From contig JAIKZG010000032.1 of assembly GCA_024682415.1 (NCBI GenBank), positions 1 through 64,000 of the forward strand: a stretch of DNA of 64,000 nucleotides, given 5' to 3'. Shown one piece after another: positions 1 through 41,539 of the stretch; the first letter of the stretch is position 1; the number at the start of each line of letters is the position of its first letter. This stretch comes from Prevotella sp. Its GTDB lineage: Bacteria > Bacteroidota > Bacteroidia > Bacteroidales > Bacteroidaceae. The notes below the pieces were generated by a model. The model searched no databases and was not told the origin of the DNA. It was given only the letters and a program-made list of their open reading frames with translations. A program made the position numbers and the translations under genes.

Positions 1-141
1 CTGACAGGGATGATTTTGGATGTCAACTTTTAATCGAGTTTAAGCATCTATAGTCTACAATTATCAGTTATAATAATTAATCTGAGTCAACTTATAAAAG
101 GTTTAGATAAAAAACAGTCAACCTAAATTAGACAAATACAG

Positions 142-266
142 GTCAGTTTTGGATATTGATATTTCCGCGAGGAAATTGCTATGTCCAGTTTTGGATATTT
201 AACATTTCCGCGAGGAAATTGCTATGGTCAGTTTTGGATATTGATATTTCCGCGAGGAAATTGAAT
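142..266. repeat. Three tandem ~42-bp units, each containing the hairpin ATTTCC-GCGA-GGAAAT
   Basis: cagttttggat...atttccgcgaggaaat occurs at 144, 186 and 229; hairpins at 161-176, 204-219 and 246-261 are perfect 6-bp stems with a GCGA (GNRA) loop. Confidence 0.9.
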
Positions 267-277
267 GGTCGTACAAT

Positions 278-27749: not shown

Positions 27750-27770
27750 GCAAAAATAGTCATTTTTGGT

Positions 27771-27920
27771 AAGATATGCAGCGTTTCAAAAATAAAAATG
27801 AATAAAATCCCTTTGCATTTCTCTCAACTTGCAGTATCTTTAGATAAGATACGTGGCGTTTCGAAAGCAAAAATGAATGAATTCATTTTGTGCTTTACTC
27901 AACTTGCAGTATCTTTGCAA
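27771..27920 (+). repeat. Imperfect 75-bp tandem duplication (2 units) ending in a promoter-like AGTATCTTTGCA
   Basis: aagatAyGyrGCGTTTCrAAA..AAAAATGAAT...CTCAACTTGCAGTATCTTT at 27771 and 27846. Confidence 0.88.
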
Positions 27921-31663: not shown

Positions 31664-31686
31664 ATTGTTCGCAAAAGAAAAAACAT

Positions 31687-31736
31687 AAAACGTATTTAAA
31701 GCACACTGCAATAATTGCTTTAAATACGTTTTTTTA
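31687..31736 (+). terminator. Strong terminator
   Basis: AAAACGTATTTAAAGCA-N12-TGCTTTAAATACGTTTTTTT. Confidence 0.92.
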
Positions 31737-31879
31737 TTTATATATAAGGTAAGCTTTTCAAAATATGGAGCAAGAAAAGTTTAAATCCTATTTTGGTTTA
31801 GATTAAAATCAAATTCTCAAATTCAAACAAGATTATTGAAAAGCATTTTTCCCTAAAATCAAAGGGGGAAAATGCGTTT

Positions 31880-32233
31880 TGTAAATAAAAGCGTTTTGAT
31901 GAACTGAATGAAGACAATTTTGTAAATTAAAACGTTTTGAAAAACTTAAAAGGGATATTTTCTCAAAAAAAATCGCTTTAATTTACATTTCAACATCGAT
32001 TTTGATTTTCAAAACACTTTTATTTACAAAATTATGATGATGCGGAAAATAAAAACGGTTTTATTTACATTTTTATGGCAGTTTCGATTTTCAAAACGTT
32101 TTAATTTACAAAATAGGGTAGTGTCGTTTCATCAAAACGTTTTTATTTACAAATCACTTTGATTTTTCATCAAAACGCTTTAATTTACATTTTCGCTTGT
32201 AACTAATTGATGTCTAAACGTTTAGAATTTCGC
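31880..32233. repeat. Array of 20-bp repeats (consensus TCAAAACGYTTTWATTTACA) at 41-bp period, 2 reverse then 6 forward copies plus a degenerate trailing copy
   Basis: Reverse copies 31880-31899, 31921-31940; forward 31968-31987 (degenerate), 32009-32028, 32050-32069, 32091-32110, 32132-32151, 32170-32189; weak copy from 32213. Confidence 0.93.
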
Positions 32234-32372
32234 CTTTACAGAATTTAACCTCAAAAACATCGCCATTTTCGCTGATTTTTCAGTGAAAACGCACGATTCT
32301 TAGGTTTTCAAGCAGATAGAAATTCTTTCCGCAAAATGCCCTCTACTGCTTGAAATTTTCGTCGTAATTGAT

Positions 32373-32412: not shown

Positions 32413-33069
32413 ATGAAAAAGTTTGTATTACTTATATTTTTTACTGCATTATCTATGGTTTCGTTTGCACTTCCCAAAGATAGTGCAAACGCTGTTACAA
32501 TGGTTGCCTATGAACAAAGATGGCTTGATGCGGAAGGAACGATTTCACTAAGAAATAATACTGATAAACCTATAGAAAATGTCTATTTCATGATTACCTA
32601 TCTTGATATGAAAGGTAATGAGAAGGACTATAAAACTTTTGCGTATAAAATTGATATAGAGCCGGGTAAGACCAAGGAATTAGATATTCCTGCTTATGAG
32701 CATGAAAGATTTTATCATTATTATAAGACACAGGATGACTATGGACATCCTGCTTTCAAAATCAGATATAGCCTTAAAGGATATAATCTTTCAAAAGAGG
32801 AAATAAGAGAATTGAATTATAATAAAGGTAATATAGACAGTATAGATAATGATTTTGCTTTTATGAGTATTGGCTTTATTATCTTTGCTATATTATTCAT
32901 TATATTTATTACGTGCGTTTTGTATGTTGTAGTTGCAATGATGGCTAAACATCGACATCGCAGTGTTGTGTTATGGCTTCTGCTAAGTTTTATCGCGACA
33001 CCACTTCTTATTATCCTTATATTGCTTATCGTCGGCAATAATGATAATTATTATTTGAATGAAGATTAA
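32413..33069 (+). CDS. Secreted/membrane hypothetical protein (signal peptide, FxLYD/CARDB-like domain, two C-terminal TM helices)
   Basis: MKKFVLLIFFTALSMVSFAL; EGTISLRNNTDKPIENVYFMITYLD; hydrophobic C-terminus. Confidence 0.75.
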   Translation: MKKFVLLIFFTALSMVSFALPKDSANAVTMVAYEQRWLDAEGTISLRNNTDKPIENVYFMITYLDMKGNEKDYKTFAYKIDIEPGKTKELDIPAYEHERFYHYYKTQDDYGHPAFKIRYSLKGYNLSKEEIRELNYNKGNIDSIDNDFAFMSIGFIIFAILFIIFITCVLYVVVAMMAKHRHRSVVLWLLLSFIATPLLIILILLIVGNNDNYYLNED

Positions 33070-33321: not shown

Positions 33322-33492
33322 AGAAAGCGTTTACTTTCCGAGAGTAACATCAGAAATCGCCAAATTTCAAATGATAATACAACTCTAAGGAAGGTAAACG
33401 CCTGCGCCGATATAGGTGTGGGCGTTTCCTTCGTAGTTGTATAGGTGTTTGGCGATACCTTGATGTTAGCGAAGGAAGTCCACACCTTTCTT
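33322..33492 (+). ncRNA. Long interrupted inverted repeat, putative structured RNA leader or mobile repeat element
   Basis: Paired blocks AGAAAG/CTTTCT, TAACATCA/TGATGTTA, ATCGCCAAA/TTTGGCGAT, TACAACT/AGTTGTA, AAGGAA/TTCCTT, ACGCC/GGCGT in nested order. Confidence 0.75.
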
Positions 33493-33522
33493 TTTGCTCC
33501 CTTGTCTGCAAAAAGAACTAAT

Positions 33523-36500
33523 ATGGCGCGTATCTATGATAACATTAACAATCAGTTTACTGATGGATTAAAAACATTTATTACTGAGCCTGGAGCTACG
33601 CGAGTGGATTTTTGCGTAGGCTATTTTAATCTTCGAGGTTGGGATTTCATTGATGAAATAATAGACCAATTGCCCGGCGAGGACATTTATGAAGAATGCG
33701 AAAACGCGACGAAGCATCGCACTTGCCGTTTGCTTGTGGGAATGCACCCCCGACAGGATGATATTCTTCGCCAGCTATATGGCAGTGGCGTGAAGCGCAT
33801 AGATGCAGAAGCGATAAACAAATATAAGTATCAAATTGCGCAGGAGTTTAAACATCAGTTGCATATCGGTTATCAAACGAATAAGGATAAGCACACATTG
33901 CAACACCTTTCGCAGCAACTTAAAAACGGAAAACTTTGTGTGAAGCTGTATCTCGCCTCGCAGCTCCATGCCAAATTATATGTCATTCATTACAGTAGCC
34001 AATTGTCGCCGAGTCGCTCTTTGCTTGGCAGCAGTAATCTTACTTATTCAGGATTAAAGGGACAAGGCGAACTCGATACTGACGTGGCTGACAATGACTC
34101 AAACAAAGTCCTCGACGATTGGTTTGAAGATAAATGGAATAATAGAAAATGTGTGGATATTTCTGCCGAGCTTGCTAATATTATTGATAACAGTTGGGCG
34201 GCAGAGGAAGAAATTCCACCTTATTATATATACCTCCGCACAGCATATATGCTAAGTCGGGATGTGCGTGACAGCTTAAAGTTTTATCAAATACCTATGG
34301 AATTTGATAAAGACCTCTTTCAGTTTCAAAAGAATGCGGTAAAGATTCTCTGCCGTCATCTCAACAACGATAAGCGCAACGGAGCTTTGCTTGGCGATGT
34401 GGTAGGTCTTGGCAAAACTATCACAGCCTGCTGTGTAGCAAAAATTTATGAAAACACTTATGGCTGTAGTAGTCTTGTGATATGTCCTGCCAATCTGCAA
34501 AAGATGTGGAAAGGATATGTTAATAAATATGACTTAAAGACAGATATTATTTCTAATGCGGTGGATTTCAAAATTGATGAGATGAAATTCTATCGCCTGA
34601 TAATAATCGATGAAAGCCACAACCTGCGTAATGAGAATGGACGGCGCTATAAAAGAATAAAAGACCTTGTGAAACATCAAGGCAGCAGCGTGCTTCTCCT
34701 TACAGCCACTCCATATAATAAAGACTATCGCGACATCAGTGCGCAGCTGAAACTCTTTATTTCTGAGGATCAGGATCTTGGAGTGCGCCCTGAAAAATAT
34801 ATAGAGCAAATAGGAGGCGAGCGTGCCTTTATGCAGAAGCATAGCGAGATTTTAATTCGCAGTATCAATGCTTTTGAGAAAAGTAACGACCCCGACGACT
34901 GGAACAGTTTGATAAAACTCTTTATGGTGCGTCGCACTCGCACTTTCATTCAGGAGAATTTCGCAAAGCTCGATGCCAACAACGGCAGGAGATATCTTGA
35001 GTTTAGCGATGGACGTCGCAGTTATTTCCCTAAGCGTCTGCCAAAGGCTATAAAATTCCCTACCGAGGGTAACGACCAGTTTAACAGGCTCTATTCTGCC
35101 AAGATGGTAGATTTGATAGAATCTTTGTCATTGCCTCGATATGGATTGTCTAACTATCTGAACGATAGCAAAATACAAGATGCTTCCGACAGCGACAAGC
35201 AGTTGTTTGATAATCTTTCTCGCGCTGGTGTACGCATGATGGGATTCTGTAAAAGCACATTCTTTAAGCGTATGGACAGTAGCGGATTTGCTTTCCTGCT
35301 CACCCTTTATCGCCACATTTTGCGCAATGCAATATATATCTACGCTATAAGCAACAATTTAGATTTGCCAATCGGTGATGAAAATGAGTTGCCCGATGAT
35401 TTTACTGATGAGAATGATATTAATTCTACGGCTTTTAATGATTTGCGTGGTCTTAGAATAAATTCTGATGGCGAAATCGTTATCCCTACATCAATGGATG
35501 AATACATGGATATTGCCAATGTGTATTATAACGAGATAAAGCACAAAAGCAATCTTTCATGGCTTAGCAGCAAATATTTCAAGCGCACGCTAAAACAGAA
35601 ACTAAAGAATGACTGCGAAACTATTATCAGCATGATAGAATATTGCGGAGCATGGCAACCGCAAGGTGATAAGAAGCTGATTTCGCTTATTAACCTTCTC
35701 ACCGGCAAGCATGCCAATGATAAGGTGCTCATTTTCACTCAGTTTTCTGATACTGCAGAATATATTTATCGCGAATTGAAGGAATTCGGAATTTCTAATG
35801 TGGATATAGCCACAGGCGACAGTGAAGACCCAACATCTTCGGCTCGCAGATTTTCGCCTGTCAGCAATGGCTATGATGTAAGTGCTCAGGACGAAACTCG
35901 TGTGCTTATTGCTACCGATGTTTTGAGCGAGGGACAAAATTTGCAGGATGCCCATATCATTCTCAACTATGATTTGCCATGGGCTATTATTCGCCTTATT
36001 CAGCGTGCCGGTCGTGTAGACCGCATTGGGCAGACATCAGAGGAAATCATGTGTTATTCGTTCTTTCCTGCCAATGGTATAGAGCAGATTATAGGTCTGC
36101 GTCAGCGTCTTAACAATCGCATTAATGAGAATGCCAATGCCGTTGGCAGTGATGAAGTATTCTTTGAGGGCAATGAAAAGAATCTAATGGATTTGTATAA
36201 TGAAAAAGCAAATCTTGATGAAGATGAAGACAGCGATGTAGACCTCATGTCGCAGGCTTACCAGATATGGAAACACGCCATAACAGGTAAGCCCGAATTA
36301 GAAGCTGCGATAGAAAATTTGCCTGATATGGCTTATGCAACTATGAATAAGTCGCAGATGGAAGGTGTCGTTACTTATGCCAAAACATATAATGGCTTTG
36401 ACATCTTGTCTTATCTTGGCAGAAATGGCGAAACCATCACTACATCGCAGAGCGAAATTTTGAAGGCTATGGCATGCCAACCATGCACTCCGAATGTTTC

Positions 36501-36903
36501 TCCACTTGATAATCATTTCAACTTGGTAAAACAATCGCTTGAAGAAATAAAGTCTACGCAGACACGGAGTGTAGGCGGAATTCTCGGCAGCAGATTCAGT
36601 ACTCGTTATCGTGTGATTAACAAGATGGAGGAATATTTCCGCCGACCTACTGATATTTTCTATAGCGAAGATAAAAAGGCTCAGTTGAAGAATGCTATCG
36701 ACGAGGTATATAATAATCCATTGCTTGAAAACAGCAAATCAATCCTTAGCCAGCATTTACGCTCAGGCATTAGCGACGACGACTTGATAGATACTATTAT
36801 TTCTATGCATGAAAGCCGCACATTGTGCCATGTAGACGACTCTGATGATAAGGAAAAAGAGCCACATGCAGTTTGTTCGCTTGGCGTGCGCAATGAAGCC
36901 TGA
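33523..36903 (+). CDS. PLD-nuclease-domain + SNF2-like helicase
   Basis: HKD-like HAKLYVIH...LLGSSNLTYSGL; GDVVGLGKT; IIDESHNLRN; LLTATPYN; QRAGRVDRIGQ. True start is probably 33523 (MARIYDNINNQF), not 33445. Confidence 0.9.
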   Translation: MARIYDNINNQFTDGLKTFITEPGATRVDFCVGYFNLRGWDFIDEIIDQLPGEDIYEECENATKHRTCRLLVGMHPRQDDILRQLYGSGVKRIDAEAINKYKYQIAQEFKHQLHIGYQTNKDKHTLQHLSQQLKNGKLCVKLYLASQLHAKLYVIHYSSQLSPSRSLLGSSNLTYSGLKGQGELDTDVADNDSNKVLDDWFEDKWNNRKCVDISAELANIIDNSWAAEEEIPPYYIYLRTAYMLSRDVRDSLKFYQIPMEFDKDLFQFQKNAVKILCRHLNNDKRNGALLGDVVGLGKTITACCVAKIYENTYGCSSLVICPANLQKMWKGYVNKYDLKTDIISNAVDFKIDEMKFYRLIIIDESHNLRNENGRRYKRIKDLVKHQGSSVLLLTATPYNKDYRDISAQLKLFISEDQDLGVRPEKYIEQIGGERAFMQKHSEILIRSINAFEKSNDPDDWNSLIKLFMVRRTRTFIQENFAKLDANNGRRYLEFSDGRRSYFPKRLPKAIKFPTEGNDQFNRLYSAKMVDLIESLSLPRYGLSNYLNDSKIQDASDSDKQLFDNLSRAGVRMMGFCKSTFFKRMDSSGFAFLLTLYRHILRNAIYIYAISNNLDLPIGDENELPDDFTDENDINSTAFNDLRGLRINSDGEIVIPTSMDEYMDIANVYYNEIKHKSNLSWLSSKYFKRTLKQKLKNDCETIISMIEYCGAWQPQGDKKLISLINLLTGKHANDKVLIFTQFSDTAEYIYRELKEFGISNVDIATGDSEDPTSSARRFSPVSNGYDVSAQDETRVLIATDVLSEGQNLQDAHIILNYDLPWAIIRLIQRAGRVDRIGQTSEEIMCYSFFPANGIEQIIGLRQRLNNRINENANAVGSDEVFFEGNEKNLMDLYNEKANLDEDEDSDVDLMSQAYQIWKHAITGKPELEAAIENLPDMAYATMNKSQMEGVVTYAKTYNGFDILSYLGRNGETITTSQSEILKAMACQPCTPNVSPLDNHFNLVKQSLEEIKSTQTRSVGGILGSRFSTRYRVINKMEEYFRRPTDIFYSEDKKAQLKNAIDEVYNNPLLENSKSILSQHLRSGISDDDLIDTIISMHESRTLCHVDDSDDKEKEPHAVCSLGVRNEA

Positions 36904-36955
36904 CATGAATAACTGATTTTCTTAAATTTGAATGTAATACACTCTTACTTTATAT

Positions 36956-39900
36956 ATGGACTTAAAAGTATTCAAAAGATATCTACGAGATGCTGATTTT
37001 GAGGCACTCTTCATAGATGAACTCGGATGGAACAATCCTCGCGGACAGCGTCTTTTGCCTTTGATTACTATTGACGAAAAGGAATATAGTTTCAACATAA
37101 TAGCAGAGCGCAATGGCTTTCAGGTGATGGAATGCTATACCGATAATTTACCTGCCACAACGCTTTGCCGACGCATAGATTATAAGTTGCGCCGACAAGC
37201 CAATGACTATATTTGTATCTTTATAGTAGATGGCACTCAGCGACAAGAATGGATGGTGCCCGTAAAGAAGACGGAGAAGCGCGACATCGTAACTTGTGAA
37301 TATGACTGCGCGGATAAAGCCATTTTCCTGTATCAGAAGATAAGCGGATTCACATTCGGCATGGATGAGCACACTACTATTGAAGATGTGAAAGAACGTG
37401 TGCATCAGGCATTCTTTGTGAATAGCGAGAAGATAACAAAGAAATTCTATGCTGAATTTAAGAAGCAGCACAAAGCTTTCGTCAAGTTTATTGTCGGTAT
37501 CGAGTCGGAAACTGATTGCGAATGGTACACTTCCATTATGCTCAATCGCTTGATGTTCTGCTACTTTGTTCAGAAAAAGAACTTCTTCGATAATGATGTA
37601 GACTATTTGCAGCATAAACTTGCCATGGTGAAGTCGCAGGAGGATGATGGCACTTTCTATGATTTTTATAGAGATTTCCTTGTCGCTCTTTTTCATGACG
37701 GTTTAAATTCTCCTGTGCATTCTAAGGAGTTTGAGCAAAAGTTTGGACGCATACCTTATCTTAATGGTGGAATGTTTGATGTCCACATGCTCGAAAGTAA
37801 ATATCCCGATATTGATATTCCTGATGAAGCTTTCGCTAATCTGTTCGCGTTTTTCGACCAGTGGCATTGGCATCTCAGCACTCGCATCACCGACAGCGGT
37901 AATGACATCAACCCAGATGTGCTTGGATATATCTTTGAGCAATACATCAATGATCGTGCGCAGATGGGTGCTTACTACACTAAAGAAGATATTACTGAAT
38001 ATATTTCTCGCAACACAATTCTGCCTTATCTTATTGACGAGACAGAGCGCAAAGGAGCAGAATTCTTTAAGCCTGACGGATATGTTTGGAGTATGCTTCG
38101 AAAGAGTGGAGTGAAATATATTTTCAATGCCATGAAGCATGGCTATACGGAAGATTGGCAGCAAAGAATACCCGATTATATCAGTAATGGTATCGACACT
38201 ACTAAGCCACATCTGCTTGAGCGTCGTGCCCATTGGAATGAAAAAACACCAGAACCTTATTGCCTGCCTACTGAAATATGGCGTGAAACTATTGACAGAT
38301 TTCAGCGTTGTGATGAAATAAAAGCTAAAATCGCTAATGCCGAGATTTGCAGTATTAATGATTTCATCACTTATAATCTCGATATTGTGCAATTCTGTCG
38401 TGATATTATCGACAACGCCACTATTGAGCAGAGCCGATTGGTGAAGCATTTCTATGCAGCTTTGCAGCATATCACTATTCTCGACCCTACTTGTGGTTCG
38501 GGTGCTTTCCTTTTTGCCGCGATGAATATTCTTGAGCCGCTTTATAGTTCTTGCATTGAGCGTATGCAGACAATGAATGAGCAGAATTCTAATCTGTTTG
38601 TCGCAGAACTTGGAGAAATCAACAAGAAATATCGCTCCAATGTGCAGTATTTCATATATAAGAGCATTATTCTGCGCAACCTCTATGGAGTGGACATCAT
38701 GAAAGAGGCTGTGGAGATAGCCAAGCTGCGCTTGTTTCTTAAAATGGTGGCAGAAGTGGAGGTAGATTTGCGTGCCGATAATCTTGGTCTTGACCCTTTG
38801 CCTGATATAGATTTCAACATTCGTTGTGGAAATACTCTTGTGGGCTATGCCACTGAGAAAGAGCTTGATACGGCTTTGCTGGAGGGTGATATGTTTGCTG
38901 CGCAGGCTTTCAAGACCGAAGTTTACAATCAGATGGATTTCGTTTCCAAAGTATTCAATAGCTTCCGCAATTTGCAACTTACACAGAATGAAGACTCTAT
39001 TGAATATAAACAGGCAAAGCATGAATTGCAGATAAGATTACAAAATTTGAATCTTACTCTGAACAAGTATATGTATAAGTCGATTATGGGGCGTGATGTT
39101 GCCGACCCTGACAATGATGAATCGTTTAAGGCATGGCTTTCTTCTCACCAACCATTTCATTGGCTTGCAGAATTTTACGAGATTATCAATGGCAATGGCG
39201 GTTTTGATGTTATTATTGGTAATCCGCCGTATGTTGTATATACAAAAAAGGATAGAATAACAAAGAAATCTGTATCTGATTTATATTCCGTTAAAGGATA
39301 TTCTACTTTGAGTTGTAATAATCTGTATGCATTTGTATTAGAACGAAGTATTTCTATCATTCATGATAATAGTGTTAATGGAATGATTATTCCAATATCA
39401 AGTTTTTCAAATGATCAATTCGTTCCATTACAAAATATAATGATGAAGAATGGGACTTTATGGCTTTCTTCTTTTTCCAACAGACCAGGAAAACTCTTTC
39501 CTGATGTAGAGCAAAGATTAACAATATTATTATTTCAATATAGAAGAATAATACATGGTTATTACACTTCTTCATATAATCATTGGTATGTGTCAGAACG
39601 TGATATCTTATTTTCAAGATTATCATATTGTTTTAATGTAAAAGAAGAAAAAGAGATTACTTATAATAAAGTTGGGAATATAATACAATCTCATATATTA
39701 AACAAACTCTTATCAAAGAGTAATAAATCACTCGGTTCATTAAGATGCTTGAATGGTGAATCAGTATTTTATCACAATGGACCGACTTATTTTATTAGAA
39801 GTATTCCTTTTATGCCAAATTCTGGTGATGGAATGGTACCTTCTTCTCATTATAAACAAATAATATGTTGTAATAATTTCTTCTTTAGTTGCATATTAAA

Positions 39901-40246
39901 TAGCTCTTTATATTATTGGTTTTATAAGAATTATAGTAATTGTAGAGACTATTCTGATCGAGAAATTAATCCTTTCCCAATTGGGGATATTAATTTAGAC
40001 ATTTTAAATAATTTAGGAAAATTAATTTCTTCTTCATATAAACAAAATCGTGTTATTAAGAATAGAAATTATAATGGTAATGTCGTTTATTATGAGGAGT
40101 ATTACCCATCAAAGTCTAAACCTATCATTGACGAGATAGACAAAGTTCTTGCAAAGCATTATGGCTTTACAGAAGAGGAGTTAGACTTTATTATCAATTA
40201 TGATATAAAGTACAGAATGGGCGAAGAGCTTAATGGGACAGAGTAA
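36956..40246 (+). CDS. Eco57I-like N6-adenine DNA methyltransferase with C-terminal target-recognition region
   Basis: ILDPTCGSGAFLFAAMNILEPLY; NPPYVVYTKKDR; DPDVLGYIFEQYIN-type linker. Confidence 0.92.
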   Translation: MDLKVFKRYLRDADFEALFIDELGWNNPRGQRLLPLITIDEKEYSFNIIAERNGFQVMECYTDNLPATTLCRRIDYKLRRQANDYICIFIVDGTQRQEWMVPVKKTEKRDIVTCEYDCADKAIFLYQKISGFTFGMDEHTTIEDVKERVHQAFFVNSEKITKKFYAEFKKQHKAFVKFIVGIESETDCEWYTSIMLNRLMFCYFVQKKNFFDNDVDYLQHKLAMVKSQEDDGTFYDFYRDFLVALFHDGLNSPVHSKEFEQKFGRIPYLNGGMFDVHMLESKYPDIDIPDEAFANLFAFFDQWHWHLSTRITDSGNDINPDVLGYIFEQYINDRAQMGAYYTKEDITEYISRNTILPYLIDETERKGAEFFKPDGYVWSMLRKSGVKYIFNAMKHGYTEDWQQRIPDYISNGIDTTKPHLLERRAHWNEKTPEPYCLPTEIWRETIDRFQRCDEIKAKIANAEICSINDFITYNLDIVQFCRDIIDNATIEQSRLVKHFYAALQHITILDPTCGSGAFLFAAMNILEPLYSSCIERMQTMNEQNSNLFVAELGEINKKYRSNVQYFIYKSIILRNLYGVDIMKEAVEIAKLRLFLKMVAEVEVDLRADNLGLDPLPDIDFNIRCGNTLVGYATEKELDTALLEGDMFAAQAFKTEVYNQMDFVSKVFNSFRNLQLTQNEDSIEYKQAKHELQIRLQNLNLTLNKYMYKSIMGRDVADPDNDESFKAWLSSHQPFHWLAEFYEIINGNGGFDVIIGNPPYVVYTKKDRITKKSVSDLYSVKGYSTLSCNNLYAFVLERSISIIHDNSVNGMIIPISSFSNDQFVPLQNIMMKNGTLWLSSFSNRPGKLFPDVEQRLTILLFQYRRIIHGYYTSSYNHWYVSERDILFSRLSYCFNVKEEKEITYNKVGNIIQSHILNKLLSKSNKSLGSLRCLNGESVFYHNGPTYFIRSIPFMPNSGDGMVPSSHYKQIICCNNFFFSCILNSSLYYWFYKNYSNCRDYSDREINPFPIGDINLDILNNLGKLISSSYKQNRVIKNRNYNGNVVYYEEYYPSKSKPIIDEIDKVLAKHYGFTEEELDFIINYDIKYRMGEELNGTE

Positions 40247-40257
40247 TAAATACTCTA

Positions 40258-40716
40258 ATGACAACGCTTGGCAATATAGAAATACTAAGAAATGAAAAGA
40301 TTGCTTTCTTTGCGTCAAGAGAGGTGAAAGCTAAATCTGTAATTGCAAGTTATGATTGGGCTATGCAGATGAGCAGAGAGGGCAAGACTGTGATAAGTGG
40401 TTTTCAGAGTAAGTTGGAGCAAGATGTGCTCCACTTCCTCTTGAAAGGCACACAGCCAATAATAAAGGTGATGGCTCGCCGATTGCCACGGCAGAAGCTA
40501 TGCGAAGAGGAGCAGAAAGCTGTAGACGATGGGCGATTGCTGATAGTAAGCCTTAATGAGCAGCCACGATGCACAAAAGAAAGTGCGTCAGTGCGTAATG
40601 AATATATTGCCGAAAGTGCTTCTTCTATTATTTTTGCTTCACTTACGGCAGAGAGTAGTCTTTTCGCCTTATATGAAGAGATGAAGCGAAGCGATAAAAA
40701 CATAATATTAATCTAA
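40258..40716 (+). CDS. SMF/DprA-like (SLOG superfamily) protein
   Basis: ISGFQSKLEQDVLHFLLKGTQPIIKVMARRLPR...RNEYIAESASSIIFASLTAES. Confidence 0.75.
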   Translation: MTTLGNIEILRNEKIAFFASREVKAKSVIASYDWAMQMSREGKTVISGFQSKLEQDVLHFLLKGTQPIIKVMARRLPRQKLCEEEQKAVDDGRLLIVSLNEQPRCTKESASVRNEYIAESASSIIFASLTAESSLFALYEEMKRSDKNIILI

Positions 40717-40738
40717 TTTCACAGCTTCTTGCAAAATT

Positions 40739-40805
40739 CTTTCCCTATATATAATAATGTGTGGGAACGTGCTTCGACGGAAAAGAAGCGTGTTCCCACA
40801 CATTT
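40739..40805. repeat. 67-bp hairpin repeat, copy 1
   Basis: ctttccctatatataataaTGTGTGGGAACGTGCTTC-gacggaaaa-GAAGCGTGTTCCCACACAttt; 64/67 identical to 41552-41618. Confidence 0.95.
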
Positions 40806-40841
40806 ACAATTCTCAAATTTGCGAATTTAAGAATATGTTTG

Positions 40842-40849
40842 TATCTTTG
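40842..40849 (+). promoter_or_regulatory. TATCTTTG -7 box for the HigBA operon
   Basis: TAnnTTTG upstream of 40870. Confidence 0.6.
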
Positions 40850-40869
40850 CAGAAGTAATAAATTCTAAT

Positions 40870-41187
40870 ATGATAGTTACATTTGAAGAAAAATATCTGA
40901 AAGAACTTTTTGAGAAAGGCTCCACAAAGGATAAGAAGCACAGATTTCAACCTCCTGTGGTAAAAGGTTATCAAAAGGGAATTAAATTTATGCTTCAAGC
41001 CCGAAAGCCTGATGATTTGAAGAAGATAAACTCTTTGAATTTTGAACCTTTACGAGGTGACAAGCAAGGAACATTTTCAATAAGGGCGAATGATAAATAT
41101 CGTATAGAGTTTACTATTGATGAAAATCTTGATACACCTGTATTGACGATTTGTAACATTATTGATTTGTCTAACCATTATAAATAA
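40870..41187 (+). CDS. higB: HigB-like toxin (RelE superfamily)
   Basis: NSLNFEPLRGDKQGTFSIRANDKYRIEFTID. Confidence 0.88.
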   Translation: MIVTFEEKYLKELFEKGSTKDKKHRFQPPVVKGYQKGIKFMLQARKPDDLKKINSLNFEPLRGDKQGTFSIRANDKYRIEFTIDENLDTPVLTICNIIDLSNHYK

Positions 41188-41194
41188 GAAGAAA

Positions 41195-41539
41195 ATGATA
41201 ACATTAAAGGGTGTGGACCCAAATATGATAGCGAATAATCTGGAATCATCATTCCTTATTCATCCTGGAGAAATGATAAAGGATGAAATAGAATCGCGAG
41301 GTATAACACAGAAGCAGCTTTCTGAAATGACTGGCATTTCGGCTTCTGTGCTGAATGAAGTGCTTAATGGTAAACGTTCGGTAACGACTAATTACGCACT
41401 TCTTTTTGAGGCTGCTCTCGGCATTGACGCTGATATTTGGATAGGATTGCAGGCTGATTACGATAAGCAGAAGGCACGCCGCGACAAATCATTTCTGAAA
41501 AGATTGGAAGAAGTGAGAAAATATGCTGCTTTGTTATAA
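41195..41539 (+). CDS. higA: HigA-like antitoxin (XRE)
   Basis: IHPGEMIKDEIESRGITQKQLSEMTGISASVLNEVLNGKRSVT. Confidence 0.92.
   Translation: MITLKGVDPNMIANNLESSFLIHPGEMIKDEIESRGITQKQLSEMTGISASVLNEVLNGKRSVTTNYALLFEAALGIDADIWIGLQADYDKQKARRDKSFLKRLEEVRKYAALL

Follow-up and report, generated by a model that had tools for sequence, protein, structure and literature searches.

What is an array of short sites at regular steps doing between genes of a Prevotella genome, and what holds its spacing? The array occupies part of a 750-bp gap in a 64,000-nucleotide stretch of contig C21 (hereafter, the window), and a preliminary description made from that stretch had proposed a helically phased protein-loading array, a partition or replication-like site, or a new class of regularly spaced repeat beside a defense-like operon.

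Architecture and dispersal of the array

A 20-bp site occurs eight times, in reverse orientation at 31880–31899 (site 1, TCAAAACGCTTTTATTTACA) and 31921–31940 (site 2, TCAAAACGTTTTAATTTACA), and then forward at 31968–31987 (site 3, AAAAATCGCTTTAATTTACA), 32009–32028 (site 4, TCAAAACACTTTTATTTACA), 32050–32069 (site 5, TAAAAACGGTTTTATTTACA), 32091–32110 (site 6, TCAAAACGTTTTAATTTACA), 32132–32151 (site 7, TCAAAACGTTTTTATTTACA) and 32170–32189 (site 8, TCAAAACGCTTTAATTTACA), the successive steps being 41, 47, 41, 41, 41, 41 and 38 bp. All eight positions reported earlier, two reverse and six forward, were borne out by the re-scan. With up to 3 mismatches allowed, the consensus has 8 matches in the 64-kb window vs. 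0.10 expected, all within the array; shuffling the 750-bp gap 1000 times with dinucleotide composition kept yielded a maximum of one site and zero pairs at 41 bp.

A search of the whole genome showed the array to be one of four dispersed full copies, all intergenic: the window copy (copy A, matched from C21:31871), a second on the same contig (C21:65185–65524, reverse), and two on contig C42 (91521–91911 and 187609–188015). This dispersal and the genome-wide period reported below escaped the preliminary description because seeing them takes the genome. The four copies align gap-free over 310 bp at 79–94% identity, with identical steps in all. Copy A as a whole extends over 31876–32283 (forward strand), as delimited by blastn homology to copy B (85% over 408 bp); approximately the same span is homologous in copies A, B and C, while copy D stops sooner. 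The possibility, raised earlier, that the regularity is accidental for lack of a conserved 41-bp spacing is thus answered by four paralogues of one genome with the same steps, which also upholds the significance attached to this spacing. The other possibility, a degenerate tandem repeat with gaps as conserved as the sites, disagrees with the greater conservation of the sites.

Several features of the window copy can be read against its paralogues. The orientation-switch spacer (31941–31967, spanned by the 47-bp step) lies within a 23-bp inverted repeat that is perfect in copies C and D and imperfect in A; site 8 lies 38 bp past site 7 in four of four copies; and the non-repetitive tail (32190–32283) is common to A, B and C and mostly absent from D. 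The proposal that all sites face one side of the helix stands within each half-array but fails across the halves: given the 47-bp switch step and the 38-bp last step, only sites inside one half share a helical face, and the overall phase concentration is R = 0.38 at 10.25 bp/turn. Likewise, the gaps are non-repetitive inside one copy, as originally described (35% identity vs. 29% expected), but homologous between the four paralogues (75%). The palindrome TCTAAACGTTTAGA (32213–32226) is indeed perfect in copy A, but only there; at the same position of the four-copy alignment the other three copies read TTAAATACTTAA, TTAAACACTTAA and CTAAGTAATTAA, and it looks incidental because it is imperfect in them. 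A terminator-like inverted repeat with a T-run, located by repeat finding (31680–31739, forward strand), is outside the element, upstream.

No copy of the element was detected in 99 congeners, 57 genomes from elsewhere in the family, 16 genomes of other families in the order, or plasmids, phages and IMG/VR viral contigs, and a pattern scan of GTDB contigs returned no copy of the array. As far as the searched genomes show, the array sequence appears restricted to the species; since these sets may omit very near relatives, the absence reads at most as "not outside the species". The solitary motif is itself nearly missing, with 3 further matches, at 2 mismatches, in the 2.5-Mb genome.

Constraint on sites and gaps

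Among the four copies, 143/160 site columns and 88/150 gap columns are invariant (Fisher p = 4e-10), the conservation of the site columns being somewhat inflated by their having been picked because units resemble one another. Inside one copy, sites are 85–88% alike and gaps 35–39%, close to the 29% that base composition predicts. Compared across copies, sites of matching position resemble one another more closely (0.94) than do the different sites of a single copy (0.87); as site variants thus persist by position, homogenization of units does not explain the constraint. Two segments of the site, AAAAC and ATTTACA, are mostly invariant over the 32 site instances, the latter with a single A-to-T change. 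Since ATTTACA is not part of any palindrome, its conservation favors, as judged from sequence, recognition by a sequence-specific factor over a simple hairpin.

Gene neighborhoods

Downstream of copy A, a gene starts near 32413 and a restriction/helicase operon follows at ~1.2 kb; the neighbors of the copy comprise an unassigned ORF, a membrane ORF, and PLD-SNF2 and type IIG genes, with no cas gene among them. The operon (33445–41539) encodes a PLD-SNF2 helicase, a type IIG restriction enzyme, a PsyrA-like protein and an HTH gene, and is a plausible candidate defense cluster; an apparent HigBA-like pair is also found within it. The suggested link between array and operon was not supported: the other three copies adjoin genes for an outer-membrane efflux protein (TolC-like), a ClC channel and GH43/AraC, which sets the array apart from the defense cluster. 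Two of these copies sit between convergent genes.

The replication-origin reading fared no better, with dnaA located on contig C32 rather than C21 and no rep/par or dnaA gene found by Pfam scans of the listed neighbors. A search near the copies gave no match to a dif site. Congeners do not share the gene order seen downstream of the flanking gene, so synteny could not show insertion. As a separate observation, GC skew turns from positive to negative at ~100–120 kb of C21, a possible replication terminus; this contig carries two of the four copies and C42 the other two.

A preferred period across unrelated arrays

Tandem Repeats Finder was applied to ~754 kb of the own genome, ~1.18 Mb from 22 congeners and ~360 kb from four genomes of other families in the order. 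Half of the own-genome intergenic arrays (17 of 34) repeat at 40–43 bp and 3 more at 83 bp (20/34 together), vs. 0/125 arrays at 40–43 bp in the congeners (p = 8e-14), where 63 of the 125 are exactly 22 bp; the other-family genomes gave 8 arrays without a period peak. The own-genome arrays of 40–43 or 83 bp fall into ~11 families (of 22) without blastn similarity to one another, although families called unrelated on this basis could share a distant ancestor. A k-mer lag count performed without Tandem Repeats Finder has own-genome peaks at 41, 42, 82 and 83, and peaks at 22, 44 and 66 in several congeners.

An independent test was provided by scanning ~85,000 genomes for TTTCC-N3-AGGAAAT, the palindrome of another own-genome family, with steps of 38–45 allowed. 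All 21 Bacteroidota loci (~13 genomes, including Hallella seregens, Segatella baroniae, Parabacteroides and Tannerellaceae) have a step of 41 or 42, and from one genome to another most of their linkers look unrelated. The four loci found in other phyla stepped 38, 40, 40 and 41. The pattern has no match in IMG/VR, so that, within the reach of that search, these arrays are not carried by phages.

A common unit length is unexpected among arrays of unrelated sequence, but it is what these genomes show. The unit lengths of 20–22, 40–43 and 63 suggest a series built on two helical turns; they recur across Bacteroidota families and match the 22-, 23- and 41-nt repeats reported in Porphyromonas gingivalis. 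The array belongs to what is apparently an unrecognized wider class of Bacteroidota intergenic arrays, with spacing held near two or four helical turns even for unrelated sequences, and a literature search (mostly outside subscription journals) found no paper describing the period rule. Several further readings were tried and set aside: A-tract curvature as a shared cause (the fourth harmonic is dominant in none of the 40–43 bp arrays), a bias of arrays toward 3' ends (no clear bias found), and a coding origin (none of the periods 22, 40 and 41 is divisible by three).

It is possible, albeit rather doubtful, that this large, sequence-diverse class has its unit length fixed by a common factor, and that the arrays are built or maintained by an unrecognized protein or copying process measuring two or four helical turns. 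With the same reserve, its setting would be 22 bp in most sampled congeners and 40–43 bp in this species and in the Parabacteroides, Hallella and Tannerellaceae examples. If the shared unit length does reflect helical phasing, it would point to a new system for organizing or copying chromosomal DNA in gut bacteria that are very common.

Comparison with known repeat systems

The closest described counterparts are the MITEs of P. gingivalis, which contain 41-nt repeats (PgRS/MITE464), 23-nt repeats (BrickBuilt, strictly intergenic) or further 22-nt repeats (PMC4596501). PgRS/MITE464, compared here by description rather than DNA alignment, resembles our element in that it is a dispersed, multi-copy sequence confined to one Bacteroidales species and has internal direct repeats of 41 nt (PMC4596501). 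It differs in having IS5-like 12-nt terminal inverted repeats, of a type not seen in our element, and plain tandem repeats in place of an orientation switch, a conserved 20-bp site and free gaps. BrickBuilt, likewise an intergenic minisatellite with flanking non-repetitive segments, many copies and a restricted host range (PMC4596501), differs by its 23-nt unit without spacer, IS5-like ends and experimentally shown promoter activity, none of which is shown for our element. Overall, the element is probably of the same kind as these MITEs, with IS5-like ends not seen in it.

Its four intergenic copies of 310–410 bp agree with a MITE in being short, non-coding and dispersed. Inverted repeats of 24 nt (96% complementary) bound the array at 31880–31903 and 32166–32189, with the homology of A, B and C extending to ~32283. 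No GAGAC-type ends were found at the copy boundaries in the copy alignment and no target site duplication was seen there by eye, the left boundary being clear and the right one varying between copies. A search of the own genome with the whole element, rather than with its ends alone, matched only the four arrays.

REP/BIME arrays associated with RAYT also combine intergenic palindromic repeats, paired orientations and many families, as here. A REP/RAYT assignment was rejected: no Y1_Tnp gene (PF01797) was detected in the own genome (87% complete), with control genomes positive, nor in congeners G003, G026 and G084, where 22-bp arrays abound, and a Y1 gene does lie near a 22-bp array in congener G016 (locus L069), with none in genomes rich in arrays of this kind. 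Plasmid iterons are ~20-bp binding sites at whole-helical-turn steps; unlike them, the element has no replication gene nearby and is chromosomal, intergenic and present in four places.

Interpretation

The account that we lean toward, at somewhat short of even confidence, is a MITE-like dispersed non-coding element (~310–410 bp) carrying a constrained nucleoprotein array, whose binding partner and function we infer. Its body consists of two opposed half-arrays in which a conserved 20-bp site recurs at a constant step of 41 bp. The site, with its AAAAC core and nearly invariant ATTTACA tail, would be bound by a sequence-specific protein; neighbors within one half-array would contact each other, demanding whole helical turns between sites; and the array would give rise to a local nucleoprotein structure at its chromosomal position, as opposed to acting as an ordinary promoter operator, the element having presumably spread by whole-element copying. 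About as tentatively, the element may be one member of a Bacteroidota intergenic class with unit length held near 22 or 40–43 bp irrespective of sequence. The main weaknesses of this account are the absence of a candidate binding protein and the scarcity of solitary motifs, the latter being unusual for a regulator. The 47- and 38-bp steps, which do not correspond to whole turns, also count against it, as does the finding that phasing of A/T tracts is not what the arrays have in common. Moreover, one sequence-specific protein could not serve all array families, as they share no detectable sequence.

The main rival, clearly less probable, is a selfish or neutral minisatellite without cell function, whose units multiply by slippage, unequal exchange or a copying process with a preferred length, and whose whole elements are moved by a transposase in trans. 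Restriction of the element to the species in the data searched, a period shared without sequence by many families of one genome (as a mutational rule would give), the copying of families such as the AACTATGTTTATAGTT array as multi-unit blocks with flanks, and the comparable MITEs of P. gingivalis (PMC4596501) all fit it; the much smaller change of sites than of gaps after dispersal and the persistence of positional site variants are not expected under neutrality, and the lack of indels in the 310-bp array also counts against it. A structural element, in which a transcript or extruded DNA would fold into a long hairpin of opposed halves and thereby affect RNA stability, termination or fork progress, is unlikely. 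Its 73-nt arms are 82% complementary, RNA folding gives z of -7.5 and -5.4 on the two strands, the central 23-bp inverted repeat is perfect in copies C and D, and several other families consist of palindromes whose arms are conserved and whose loops vary. However, any site repeated in opposed orientations will by its nature fold well, covariation over the four copies stays within the range of shuffles (2 pairs, 125/500; 1/79 pairs in another test), and arrays have no clear preference for gene 3' ends.

Regulation of adjacent genes by an operator array (the gene starting near 32413, or the defense operon) would suit the position of copy A upstream of both, but is quite improbable given that the genes beside the remaining copies are unrelated, with convergent genes around two of those copies, and that hardly any solitary sites occur elsewhere. 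Least credible of all is a CRISPR-like, partition or replication site, which the repeat with variable gap, the regular spacing and the iteron-like helical step might evoke. The gaps are not acquired spacers because they are homologous at the same positions between copies, which excludes the CRISPR-like reading; the preliminary description was correct in calling the array, with its orientation switch and no cas neighbors, non-CRISPR. The location of dnaA on another contig and the absence of copies from plasmids, phages and viral contigs disfavor the remaining variants.

Other arrays observed

The palindrome AAATAAAAACGTTTTTATTT was considered as a genus-wide promoter operator and rejected, its counts in congeners not exceeding the reversed control; its weak congener matches sit upstream of promoters. 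A 42–43 bp family built on the hairpin TTTCCGCGAGGAAA, with a GNRA-like loop, is present in the window (141–270) and at loci L117 (12750–13343) and L118 (12809–13333) in 3, 14 and 12.5 copies, respectively, with arms invariant in the sampled units and varying loop and linker. Intergenic repeats of 74–75 bp, in which a segment GTATCTTT resembles the Bacteroidetes -7 promoter box, occur in the window (27770–27916) and at L119 (14400–14646) and L129 (10216–10466). Exactly 40-bp intergenic arrays (TTTTAGGATTTGTCTGTAGAGTTGTGCAGCGAAATCTTCG) of up to 12.7 copies are found at five loci of the sampled part of the own genome (L191, L192, L201, L205 and L209), and the AACTATGTTTATAGTT arrays (L126 6033, L127 15551, L130 5451) consist of four 41-bp units copied as blocks with ~100–190 bp of shared flanks. 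Among the congeners, G016 (L069/L132, ~623–625 kb) carries a 22-bp array, GTAACTTGACGCAAGTTAC, that likewise switches orientation and lies ~0.5 kb from a Y1 (RAYT-like) transposase gene, and G084 (L156–L160) has short 22-bp arrays of the TTTTGCAxTGCAAAA+CAGACGC type in 11 positions within 100 kb, which suggests a genome-wide total in the hundreds.
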